Notes under the pieces: generated by a model
What the model was told of the DNA's origin: nothing
The model's input: only the letters and a program-made list of their open reading frames with translations
The model's database searches: none
Virus record (IMG/VR): IMGVR_UViG_3300043823_000274
Coordinates: 1-23,728 of that record
Direction: 5' to 3' (one strand)
Source: a virus
DNA length: 23,728 bases
Part shown: piece after piece, positions 7,887 through 15,600 of the stretch
Layout of the letters: each line of letters begins with the position of its first letter
How positions within the stretch are numbered: the first letter of the stretch is position 1
Translations under genes and position numbers: made by a program

Positions 7887-8723
7887 ATGAAAGTCAGTAT
7901 TGATAAGGTTCGTTTAGACGGTGGGACGCAATTTCGCAAAACATTGCTAAACAACAAAATATATGAGTACAAGGAAGCGATGGAAGAAGGGGCTAAATTT
8001 CCCCTAATTTCTGTACGTTTTGACGGTAGCGATTATTGGCTATCGGACGGATTCCATAGATATCACGCATTAAAATTATTAGAGATGCGCGAAATTGAAG
8101 TGGACTGCAAATCAGGTACTCGTGAAGATGCGGTATGGGATGCTTTGGCTGCTAATGGCAATCACGGTATCGCTTTAACCGTATCGGAAAAGATCAATAA
8201 GGTTAAAACTGCATTAAGCCTAACAGGAAGCGACAAGAAGTCGAATTACGCCATAGCCAAGGCTTGCGTAGTTTCCGAGCATTTGGTGGCTCGTATTCGC
8301 AACCCTGAGCTAAAAAGCAAGTATGACCAAAAGCGACATGAGTCAGCAGTAAGAAAAAGCCAACAAAATCAAGAAAATCAAATAGATACCGAAAACAGTG
8401 GTAAAAAAACTACTGATCCGATCAGTAATAAATTGATAGCATCTGGTGAAAATGTACAAGTCGATGAGGCGTTTGAGGCAGACGAAGAGGAGTTATTGGC
8501 TTTAAAACTGGAAGAGGAAATGGATCGCAAGTTTATTGCCGATCTTATGGATGCCGACGATAAATTCGCTAAATCCTGTCAAGAAGTCAAAAGGTTACAA
8601 AGTCTTAATGCCAAATTTGATGCGCGAATTAAATCGTTAATGAACGAAAAAAATGCCGCATTGAAACAAATTAAGGCGTTGCAAAAAACAATTGATCGTT
8701 TAGAGCGAGAGCTTGGTAGATGA
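7887..8723 (+). CDS. ParB N-terminal-domain protein with coiled-coil C-terminus
   Basis: I chose ATG 7887 (278 residues) because AAGGAG lies six bases upstream; an in-frame TTG 18 bases earlier overlaps the previous gene. Residues about 1-95 resemble the ParB/Srx-type domain, with LSDGFHRYHALK as the usual G-H-R-like signature and SVRFDG before it. Residues about 95-150 look like a helical DNA-binding segment. A low-complexity linker (Gln/Asn/Lys) follows, then a long Glu/Lys-rich coiled coil to the end. ParB-type domains bind DNA and use CTP, or act as nucleases; the role here is unknown. The linker DNA contains a 38-base palindromic repeat shared with the terS-terL gap. The stop overlaps the helicase start (ATGA). 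Confidence 0.7.
   Translation: MKVSIDKVRLDGGTQFRKTLLNNKIYEYKEAMEEGAKFPLISVRFDGSDYWLSDGFHRYHALKLLEMREIEVDCKSGTREDAVWDALAANGNHGIALTVSEKINKVKTALSLTGSDKKSNYAIAKACVVSEHLVARIRNPELKSKYDQKRHESAVRKSQQNQENQIDTENSGKKTTDPISNKLIASGENVQVDEAFEADEEELLALKLEEEMDRKFIADLMDADDKFAKSCQEVKRLQSLNAKFDARIKSLMNEKNAALKQIKALQKTIDRLERELGR
8401..8438 (-). repeat. 38-base palindromic repeat, copy 1, inside the parB-like gene
   Basis: Its core TACTGATCCGATCAGTA (8411-8427) is an 8+1+8 palindrome flanked by a run of seven A. The reverse complement of 8401-8438 matches 22075-22112 at 36 of 38 bases, including the T7 run. It lies in the low-complexity linker codons, where a new segment would be tolerated. Confidence 0.85.
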
Positions 8724-10705: not shown

Positions 10706-11580
10706 GCTTTTTAGATTTTGCCGCCCAGAATGGGCTAGATATCCCCCTTGGTAAGTTCTACCCGTCCGACAAGATTAAGCGTTGTGGGACGACCGATAAG
10801 CCCAAGTCCGATAACGGGGCGTTCTTCTGGGACGGTCAGCGTGGGTGGGTGATGAATTGGAGCCTTGATCAGAAGGTTCATTGGTATCACGACAAAACCG
10901 CGAAACCTTGGACGGAGGATGAAAAGCAGTATTGGCGAGATCGGCGCAGGGTTGAGGCGATGAAAAAGTCGGAAGCGCAAGTTAAAGCAGCTCAGAAGGC
11001 TATGCGCGACCTGCGGTTTGCCATCTTGCGTGATCACATTTACCTTGACGTCAAAGGGTTTCGGGAAACCGAAGGGCTTGTGCTTGACGAGAAGCTGCTT
11101 GTCCCTATGCGCAATATGCGGACGAACCTTATTCAAGGCTATCAGGCTATTTGGTGGGACAAAACGAAAAAGGATTACGTCAAGAAGATGCTGTATGGCA
11201 TGAAGGCCGCCGAAGCTGTTTTTTATATTGGAAAAACTAAAAATACTGAATACTGGCTAGTCGAGGGATACGCCACAGGATTAAGCCTAGCGGAAGGGCT
11301 TAAGCGGGCTTGTATTCCCGCCACGGTAGTGGTTTGCTTCTCAGCCAACAATCTCGGCACTGTCGCCCGTTATTTGGCTTCTATGGGCAATGTTTATATT
11401 TTTGCCGATAACGATGCCTCCAAGACTGGGCAAAAGGTGGCTGAAGCGTCGGGGTGTCGGTGGGGAATGGCTGAAACTGAGGGGTGGGATGCCAACGATT
11501 TACATCAGCGCAAGGGAATATTGGCGCTTGTTAGAAAAATAATGGAAATAAGGCTTGACCCGCTATTAAAGGCGGTATAG
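10702..11580 (+). CDS. Toprim-domain DNA primase-like protein
   Basis: The protein has 292 residues. The C-terminal half is a Toprim domain: VEGYATGLSLAEGL with catalytic Glu 188, then IFADNDAS with Asp 236 and Asp 238, then GWDANDL (Asp 263, Asp 266). This is the order seen in phage and plasmid primases. The N-terminal part (1-110) is basic with only one cysteine (Cys 28), so it has no classical zinc ribbon. Primases make RNA primers for lagging-strand synthesis; here the helicase is a separate gene rather than a fused domain. It is the last gene of this run and its last codons hold a promoter-like sequence directed at the structured RNA region. Confidence 0.85.
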   Translation: MSFLDFAAQNGLDIPLGKFYPSDKIKRCGTTDKPKSDNGAFFWDGQRGWVMNWSLDQKVHWYHDKTAKPWTEDEKQYWRDRRRVEAMKKSEAQVKAAQKAMRDLRFAILRDHIYLDVKGFRETEGLVLDEKLLVPMRNMRTNLIQGYQAIWWDKTKKDYVKKMLYGMKAAEAVFYIGKTKNTEYWLVEGYATGLSLAEGLKRACIPATVVVCFSANNLGTVARYLASMGNVYIFADNDASKTGQKVAEASGCRWGMAETEGWDANDLHQRKGILALVRKIMEIRLDPLLKAV

Positions 11581-11583
11581 GAT
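11555..11583 (+). promoter_or_regulatory. Predicted promoter for the structured RNA region
   Basis: TTGACC (11555-11560), a 17-base spacer and TAGGAT (11578-11583) lie across the end of the primase gene. Transcription would start near 11590, just before the first hairpins of the structured region. Confidence 0.4.
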
Positions 11584-11589
11584 TACATC

Positions 11590-11760
11590 GTCTGATGTGG
11601 CAGTCAGGCGTAGAGGAAAAAGTATGACCCCAGACCGTTTAAGTGTGGGGCGTGTAGATGAAGCGTTTACCCCTCGAAGGTAAAAATCTTTTTTCTCGAC
11701 GCCCAGTCTGCCCTCGCCAAGGGCCGCTCCACACTTAAATGTTCTGGGGTTTTTCTTTTG
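11590..11760 (+). ncRNA. Structured RNA 1: 22-bp closing stem with a branched interior
   Basis: Bases 11627-11648 pair with 11729-11750 over 22 positions with one mismatch and one G-U pair. Inside are GGGCGT (11648-11653) with ACGCCC (11699-11704), enclosing the hairpin TTTACC (11666-11671) / GGTAAA (11679-11684), then a hairpin GCCCT (11710-11714) / AGGGC (11720-11724). This folds as a branched junction. T5CT4 follows at once, so the whole could end by intrinsic termination. The stem is far longer than an ordinary terminator. The exact 5' end is inferred from a promoter-like sequence. No known RNA family is recognised. A 19-codon frame with a ribosome site overlaps the left arm. Confidence 0.55.
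11624..11683 (+). CDS. Possible 19-residue leader peptide in structured RNA 1
   Basis: The frame from ATG 11624 reads MTPDRLSVGRVDEAFTPRR, preceded by GAGG (11613-11616) seven bases upstream. It runs through the left arm of the long stem and stops in an inner hairpin. If translated, ribosomes would open the stem, as in attenuation leaders. It is too short to judge from codon use and may be chance. Confidence 0.25.
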   Translation: MTPDRLSVGRVDEAFTPRR

Positions 11761-12014
11761 GCACTCAGACCGCCAAACTGGTCGCTCACTCGCGGCTGCG
11801 GTTTGGGGAAAGCTCTACAGTGGGAAAGACGTTGAGATAGAGCTAGGGGTGGCGAAGGCAGCGCCCCAACGTCGAACGGCTACCGAGGTGTCAGGCTCCG
11901 ACTCGACATAAAGGCTCCCCAGAGGCTACGGTCTCTGGGAAGGCTGAGGAATCCCACCAACCCAACAGACTAACTAGGATTAACCGTTAAGTACTCTTAC
12001 TGATATATTTTTTT
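11761..12014 (+). ncRNA. Structured RNA 2: hairpins and a pseudoknot, unknown family
   Basis: No reading frame of note is present but many helices are. A hairpin spans 11773-11806 (CCAAACTG / CGGTTTGG plus an inner stem). AGCTCTA (11811-11817) pairs with TAGAGCT (11838-11844), while GACGTTG (11828-11834) in its loop pairs with CAACGTC (11867-11873), a pseudoknot. A small hairpin GGCG (11851-11854) / CGCC (11862-11865) sits between. CCCAGAGGC (11918-11926) pairs with GTCTCTGGG (11931-11939) around a TACG loop. GTGGGA (11820-11825) may pair with TCCCAC (11952-11957). A T8 run lies at 12007-12014. The function is unknown. Confidence 0.55.
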
Positions 12015-14856: not shown

Positions 14857-15124
14857 GCCAACCAACTACCCAATGGTTTTTACAGGTCATTACTTAATTG
14901 GCGCCAACCCCAACGACTCCGAGCATGGGTACTGGGACACAGAGGAAGAAGCCATCATTAACTTTGCTTTGCAATTTGCTAAGTTGGCGCAAAACGCACA
15001 GGGAGATTTCTTGTTTATCCGCAAAGCGCCAACGGTAAGTGAAGACGCTGTATTTGGTCACACCGTTAAATGGCGAATGGTTGGAAGATTTTCAATTTGC
15101 AAGCTCAAGGAGAAGAACACATGA
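14849..15124 (+). CDS. Hypothetical phage protein (91 aa)
   Basis: ATG 14849 lies three bases after the repeated segment, overlapping the preceding gene by eight bases. The product has a mixed alpha/beta look (FTGHYLIGANPN, then EEEAIINFALQFAKLAQ, FLFIRKAPTV, WRMVGRFSICKLKEKNT). No known motif is present. The stop overlaps the next start (ATGA). Confidence 0.6.
   Translation: MGEPTNYPMVFTGHYLIGANPNDSEHGYWDTEEEAIINFALQFAKLAQNAQGDFLFIRKAPTVSEDAVFGHTVKWRMVGRFSICKLKEKNT
15100..15117 (+). repeat. 18-base direct repeat at a gene junction, copy 2
   Basis: This is identical to 14829-14846 and has the same role as shared C-terminal codons and ribosome site, followed by CACATG instead of TCATG. Confidence 0.85.
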
Positions 15125-15600
15125 TTATAAAAGCAATGAAGGAAGCTCTTAATGCTTTGCATTTGGTCAAAAAAAATTATTTCAATTTTTGGGAGAAAAT
15201 ATCCCCTGATGATTCTATTTGGAATGATATTGCTGCATCAGATGCAGAGATTTCAAGGGTCATTGAAGAGTTTATAGAAGCAATTAGAGTTTACGAATCA
15301 TCACCGCCTGAAGCTATAACCGAAGCCGAAAAAATTGCATTTGCTTTTGGATGGTTCAAGGCATTGGAGTTACAAGGTTCAAGGAGTCTAGTTATGCGAA
15401 GAAGTGTGACACCTGATGAAAACACGGAAGGCTACCGATTGTTTGATCACGCAACGGAAGCCGAAGAGTTCCTCAAGTCAATTGTGGATAAATTCCCTCG
15501 TGACAAGTACAAAACCCAAGCCGAGGGTACGATGATCACCGATTACGGCAAACCCATAACTTACGTCGTCCGATGGATGATCTGGGGGAGCCATGAGTAA
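15121..15600 (+). CDS. Hypothetical phage protein (159 aa)
   Basis: I chose ATG 15121 because it overlaps the preceding stop (ATGA) and follows AAGGAG. The N-terminal half (about 1-85) is helical and AT-rich in its codons. The C-terminal half (YRLFDHATEAEEFLKS, then ITYVVRWMIWGSHE) is less AT-rich and looks like the C-terminus of the gene before it, with the same TEEEA/TEAEE and VKWRM/VRWMI pattern. The two may share a domain and have arisen by duplication. The function is unknown. Confidence 0.6.
   Translation: MIIKAMKEALNALHLVKKNYFNFWEKISPDDSIWNDIAASDAEISRVIEEFIEAIRVYESSPPEAITEAEKIAFAFGWFKALELQGSRSLVMRRSVTPDENTEGYRLFDHATEAEEFLKSIVDKFPRDKYKTQAEGTMITDYGKPITYVVRWMIWGSHE

Follow-up and report, generated by a model that had tools for sequence, protein, structure and literature searches.

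A candidate conditional transcription terminator with a covarying 5' hairpin in a phage genome and its relatives

The window analysed here, a stretch of 23,728 bases from an IMG/VR virus record, carries a compact RNA module that, on balance, probably acts as a promoter-proximal leader attenuator, that is, as a conditional transcription terminator gated by a kissing or pseudoknot interaction. The module comprises a promoter, a hairpin (P0) with segment A as its loop, a stem (B:B'), a segment A' situated 5' of B', and a U-run. Three helices covary among related phage loci, promoter and T-run are kept, folding is predicted to proceed in a consistent order, and the module precedes different downstream partners. 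Since it is kept in varied sequence before different structured RNAs and genes, the module probably decides whether the downstream region is transcribed.

The module in the window

The module lies just 3' of a Toprim-domain gene on the plus strand, and the plus-strand genes downstream of it encode a 2OG-Fe(II) oxygenase, a RuvC-like resolvase, a DNA methylase and, further on, a terminase. Elsewhere in the window, positions 15070–15600 resemble the Pfam family of the anti-CRISPR AcrF3 below threshold (E = 0.0072; 17.2 bits, with the cut-off at 27), probably by chance.

The sigma70-type promoter that the original prediction described as aimed at the stem is present at 11555–11583 (TTGACC at 11555–11560, a 17 bp spacer and TAGGAT at 11578–11583). 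It scores above all 100 shuffles, occurs at a similar offset in relatives, and has a predicted transcription start near 11590. Downstream of it, arms B (11626–11652) and B' (11725–11751) form a 26-bp stem, composed of 9 bp, a 1x1 mismatch and 17 bp, which is followed by the T-run TTTTTCTTTT (11750–11759); a T-run after the stem is also kept in relatives. The two 22-base arms that had been picked out earlier (11627–11648 and 11729–11750) do pair at 21 of 22 positions with one G-U, ahead of the T-run, and lie within this longer stem. Such a count by itself barely exceeds chance (the best of 60 mononucleotide shuffles reached 20), and the weight for the stem rests instead on its covariation in relatives and on the folding energy: the minimum free energy of 11590–11760 is -74.5 kcal/mol, compared to -46.7 +/- 3.9 kcal/mol for dinucleotide shuffles (z = -7.1; 0/200). 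Shuffle energies and partner-swap covariation together rule out a chance hairpin. The interior of the stem folds into small hairpins, as had been proposed, and the predicted fold places a hairpin with the arms GCCCU/AGGGC (11710–11724) between A' and B'.

Like an intrinsic terminator, the stem 11626–11652/11725–11751 is a G+C-rich hairpin immediately followed by a U-run (TTTTTCTTTT). It has neither the short stem nor the small loop of that class, however, and with 26 bp around a 72-nt loop it is far from an efficient textbook terminator.

Two further elements had been overlooked in the original prediction. One is the predicted hairpin P0, GUCUGAU[GUGGCA]GUCAGGC, at 11590–11609, the equivalent of which covaries in relatives (z = 12.4). 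The other is a long form of the A:A' helix, in which A (11599–11622, from the predicted nascent fold) pairs with A' (11688–11712). Segment A in this form overlaps the 3' strand of P0, and the helix crosses the stem B:B' and forms at the expense of P0. The window's A:A' pairing beats 39 of 39 swapped partners, and a long form like it also occurs in loci L034, L044, L006 and L027. Only about 4 bp of match exist between the window's P0 loop and A'; this weak match and the longer A:A' helix make the window a divergent member of the set.

Covariation and conservation in related loci

Pattern scans for the core of RF02932 (Betaproteobacteria-1 RNA), the RNA family that adjoins the module in the window, yielded 123 loci. 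Of these, 60 have a strong stem that runs up to a T-run and sits upstream of the core at a comparable distance. In these 60 loci the elements follow in the order A, B, A', B', with A located 5' of B, and A' located in the loop, 5' of B'. We exchanged pairings among 40 representatives and compared the scores of true and swapped partners. Both helices were strongly partner-specific: B:B' scored 43.8 with its own and 17.5 with swapped partners (z = 21), and A:A' scored 24.7 and 19.4, respectively (z = 8.4), with 0 of 10,000 permutations as high in either case. The comparison leans conservative, because relatedness of the sequences makes swapped partners more alike. Read directly, the A:A' pairs comprise 20 different 7-mers, and each position shows three to five types of standard pair; this count illustrates the variation and is no proof of it, because the pairs were chosen for complementarity.

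The bases flanking A also pair with each other, forming P0 (own score 14.8, swapped 11.1; z = 12.4; 87 distinct modules, a few of them probably spurious). This support is independent of that for A:A', because the flanks played no part in choosing A. In relatives, P0 is a stem of about 5–10 bp with a loop, mostly of 6–10 nt, that corresponds to A. Given that A is the loop of a hairpin, the most fitting interpretation of A:A' in most relatives is a loop-loop kiss. The original prediction was staked on the stem being kept in close relatives: that part fails for the many RF02932 loci from which the stem is absent, and it stands for the loci that have the stem, where the arms covary.

Upstream of the module, the top promoter score has a mean of 10.2 in relatives and 5.5 in shuffles (combined P-value of about 1e-23, which is inflated, because the loci are partly related), and the -10 box falls at a narrow offset from B. 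Inspection by eye, with no T-run required, shows that the strongest stems end in or at a T-run in nearly all cases; the exceptions are L117 and a second stem in L067, and the automatic flag overlooks T-runs that lie inside an extended stem. With promoter placement and T-run stems thus kept, the earlier view of the element as a discrete unit holds up, and its RNA, if made, would be about 165 nt long. A stricter scan of 1.78 Mb of bacterial DNA (both strands) gave 11 T-run stems, one of them with an abutting A:A' of at least 7 bp, and the same scan of the viral loci gave 172 stems, 111 of them with an abutting A:A'; this comparison is a background check and no estimate of enrichment, because the viral loci were chosen for their neighbourhood and are redundant.

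Predicted order of folding

In the window, nascent RNA ending at about 11705–11735 is predicted to hold much or all of the A:A' helix, and from about 11740 onwards B:B' supplants it in the predicted fold. A corresponding succession is predicted in relatives: minimum-energy folds of RNAs cut at A' contain A:A' in 22 of 31 representatives (those whose A:A' is simple, abutting and at least 6 bp long), and folds of full-length RNAs contain B:B' in 41 of 42 representatives, all of these being nested predictions in which pseudoknots fall outside the scoring. The arrangement resembles an attenuator in two respects, namely in having an alternative fold that, by prediction, precedes the terminator, and in lying between a promoter and the part to be controlled, as indicated by the promoter and by copies of the module that stand before gene starts (see below). 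Segments A (11599–11622) and B (11626–11652) do not overlap in the window, and A and B likewise share no bases in most relatives. The helices in those relatives are thus not mutually exclusive through competition for sequence, and may coexist as a pseudoknot.

RF02932 and other regions behind the module

RF02932 is the module's downstream partner in the window (plus strand, 11771–11888; cmscan 96.1 bits, E = 3.6e-17), and its conserved region, judging from an extension seen in relatives, continues to about 11960. It begins about 12 nt past the T-run, and this spacing is near constant in relatives. As the gap between the T-run (ending at 11759) and RF02932 (starting at 11771) is too small for a promoter, RF02932 in the window would need read-through of the module. 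The match to the RF02932 covariance model covers 11771–11888 only, leaving the module outside it; both in the window and in the relatives scanned, the module itself showed no Rfam 15 family match that exceeded the gathering score.

RF02932 immediately follows the module in about 60 relatives as well as in the window. About half of the RF02932 loci have no module, and each of the two also occurs without the other. We accordingly rejected the possibility that the module is a 5' domain of RF02932. In several loci derived from the oxygenase-gene search, the module is present, and RF02932 is replaced by another GC-rich region, designated here type II, with the motif GGGGGCAG ... GGGGTGAAGCACC. A scan for this motif found 66 loci with the core, and nearly all of those extending far enough have the module on its 5' side. 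The A:A' pairing covaries in type II loci as well (z = 3.7, n = 31). Three loci that were first counted as lacking the module (L331, L385 and L386) proved on re-examination to have it, and three non-RF02932 records searched over their whole length contain no RF02932. A scan with a single B' arm recovered 36 loci, in which the module is followed by RF02932, by type II, or by several other kinds of region.

Examples of type II include L070, L075, L079 and L330; L037 matched both of the simple patterns, that for RF02932 and that for type II. Other GC-rich regions without an Rfam assignment occupy the place of RF02932 in L396/L398/L409, L404/L415/L419, L405, L413/L418/L077, L400/L417/L078 and L407/L408. 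None of the non-RF02932 downstream regions has an Rfam match at the gathering score. These GC-rich regions are possibly several undescribed phage RNAs, 'structured' being a judgement from their appearance.

Several features of RF02932 itself were observed in passing. Its 3' domain (e.g. in L015, L008, L009, L012 and L020) contains a direct repeat of 6–10 nt, one copy after GGCTCCG, in a hairpin loop, and the other after CCACCA. The repeat varies between phages and matches within each (own 6.6 nt, swapped 4.4 nt; z = 20.8, n = 74); the equivalent in the window, at about 11890–11960, is weak. Seven complement tests revealed no convincing complement of the repeat in cis (best z = 2.9). RF02932 presumably shares GGTGGCGAAGGC with 16S rRNA, and the idea that it mimics 16S rRNA was considered and set aside. 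In the cultured Acidovorax phage AP1 (L326; OM049504.1), RF02932 lies at locus positions 7950–8073, between the primase gene and the next ORF, without the module. In L327 (MW202545.1, 5195–5676), five tRNA genes lie directly 5' of the promoter of the module and RF02932.

Second copies ahead of genes

Six loci (L111, L293, L354, L383, L397 and L405) have a second type of module copy, located after a TATAGT box. Its P0 is AACGC[TTGGCGG]CGTT, with the loop TTGGCGG facing an A' of CCGCCAA, and the P0 of L397, ATCGC[TTGGCGG]CGAT, shows a compensatory change. Where the sequence beyond this copy was read, the T-run's first T lies about 20 nt ahead of a gene start; the gene in question resembles the ParB-like ORF of the window in L354, L397 and L405. 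A terminator that always worked would bar expression of the gene from the TATAGT promoter, so the terminator there must be conditional; these copies ahead of gene starts provide the strongest argument that the terminator is conditional. The window itself yielded no second copy. A similar arrangement stands ahead of an HNH-like gene in L374.

Alternative explanations

Alternatively, the module might yield an independent small RNA of the phage, about 165 nt long, with an mRNA or a protein as its target in trans. The stem with the T-run would then end the RNA, the kiss would compact it, and RF02932 would be read from upstream early promoters. Such an RNA would account for the complete unit from promoter to T-run and for the module's travelling with different downstream regions. 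Yet nearly all of the module RNA is paired and its unpaired spacers vary among modules, so that no conserved seed is seen, and the near-constant spacing to RF02932 and the copies just before gene starts fit a leader better. We consider this explanation rather unlikely. The related proposal that the element is a processed 5' piece of the neighbouring structured RNA is not supported, as the module also precedes non-RF02932 regions and a ParB-like gene, and about half of the RF02932 loci lack it.

A duplex of about two helical turns suits RNase III, and the stem of the window and those of most modules have about this length. Cleavage of the 20–26 bp stem could detach RF02932 and the genes behind it from the mRNA upstream, with the T-run being incidental. 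A processing site, however, needs neither the T-run that comes after nearly all strong stems nor the promoter that precedes the module, which makes this explanation highly improbable. Slightly more doubtful still is an ordinary strong terminator that closes the primase operon and to which promoter and A:A' are incidental: the position just 3' of the Toprim gene and the terminal T-run would suit it, but A:A' and P0 covary, promoter placement is kept, and copies occur in gene leaders. The original prediction that this is not an ordinary terminator is borne out by the covarying 5' hairpin, which pairs with the terminator loop. Leader-peptide attenuation through a 19-codon frame inside the window's module (11624–11683), whose ATG is preceded by a Shine-Dalgarno-like GAGG, is barely credible and was rejected as a general feature, a comparable frame being missing from most related modules.

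Comparison with known systems

The preQ1-I riboswitch is a pseudoknot coupled to an intrinsic terminator, and the module resembles it in this combination but shows no conserved unpaired aptamer core. By analogy, the nearest functional parallels to a gated leader terminator are the pT181 attenuator and the late transcription of lambda that is controlled by Q (PMC7171158). The lambda late leader has the layout pR'-tR', and we know of no covarying kissing fold in it. Its likeness to the module lies in the succession of a promoter, a short leader, a terminator and a long phage operon that needs read-through; lambda has the antiterminator Q, whereas no Q-like protein was found among the ORFs scanned. 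In the repC attenuator of pT181, the terminator is released by an antisense RNA that forms a kiss (PMC4878617). That system and the module as interpreted here share an intrinsic terminator that acts conditionally within a 5' leader, together with a 5' hairpin and a mechanism that involves kissing loops. In pT181, the antisense RNA kisses the 5' hairpin, and an anti-terminator ties up the 5' portion of the terminator (PMC4878617); in the phage module, the kiss is intramolecular and involves the terminator loop, and no anti-terminator shares bases with B in the window or in most relatives. The HK022 put RNA is likewise a phage nascent RNA that lies near a promoter and controls termination; put suppresses termination downstream of itself (PMC9378689), whereas the module ends in its own T-run.

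Searches of a literature that included few subscription papers gave nothing matching the module, its kind, or 'Betaproteobacteria-1 RNA' by name, which is a weak negative. Among annotated phages, the searches recovered MW202545.1 and Acidovorax phage AP1 alone, and AP1 lacks the module; no copy was found in the plasmids searched. A single B' arm pattern, which fits one subfamily only, had no match in 399 genomes of the order of the Caballeronia record; one pattern scan of genome contigs was too loose, its matches being mostly chance.

Proposed mechanism and significance

Under the attenuator reading, RNA polymerase would initiate near 11590, and the 5' segment (P0 with loop A) would pair with A' once A' emerges, as a kiss in most relatives and as the longer crossing helix in the window. 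Emergence of B' would then allow the B:B' terminator to form, and we infer that transcription would stop at about 11755. The stop would be avoided if the RNA were held in the A:A' state or if the stem were blocked in another way, and read-through would deliver RF02932 and the plus-strand genes downstream. That termination in the window is conditional and regulated, and that A:A' opposes rather than helps it, we likewise infer: A:A' could delay or topologically block B:B' on RNA tethered to the polymerase, or could stabilise B:B'. Neither a Q-like nor an N-like antiterminator was found among the ORFs scanned, which are a part of the ORF set. The short RNA left by termination might, in addition, form kissing contacts with nascent copies in trans, leading to self-regulation according to copy number.

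Conditional terminators are a known form of control. For a version in which the terminator itself bears an intramolecular kissing loop that covaries in dozens of distinct phage loci, Rfam and the literature searched offered no counterpart. We tentatively raise the possibility of a new class of phage transcription switch: its terminator would be controlled by a 5' hairpin that kisses it, loop to loop, within the same RNA; it would be used more than once per genome (ahead of the ParB-helicase-primase operon and behind the primase gene); and it would head a slot occupied by any of several structured RNAs that are unrelated and for the most part undescribed. The module is compact enough for ordinary reporter tests, and it provides a sequence handle on a phage locus at which structurally different RNAs, including the unexplained RF02932, replace each other.
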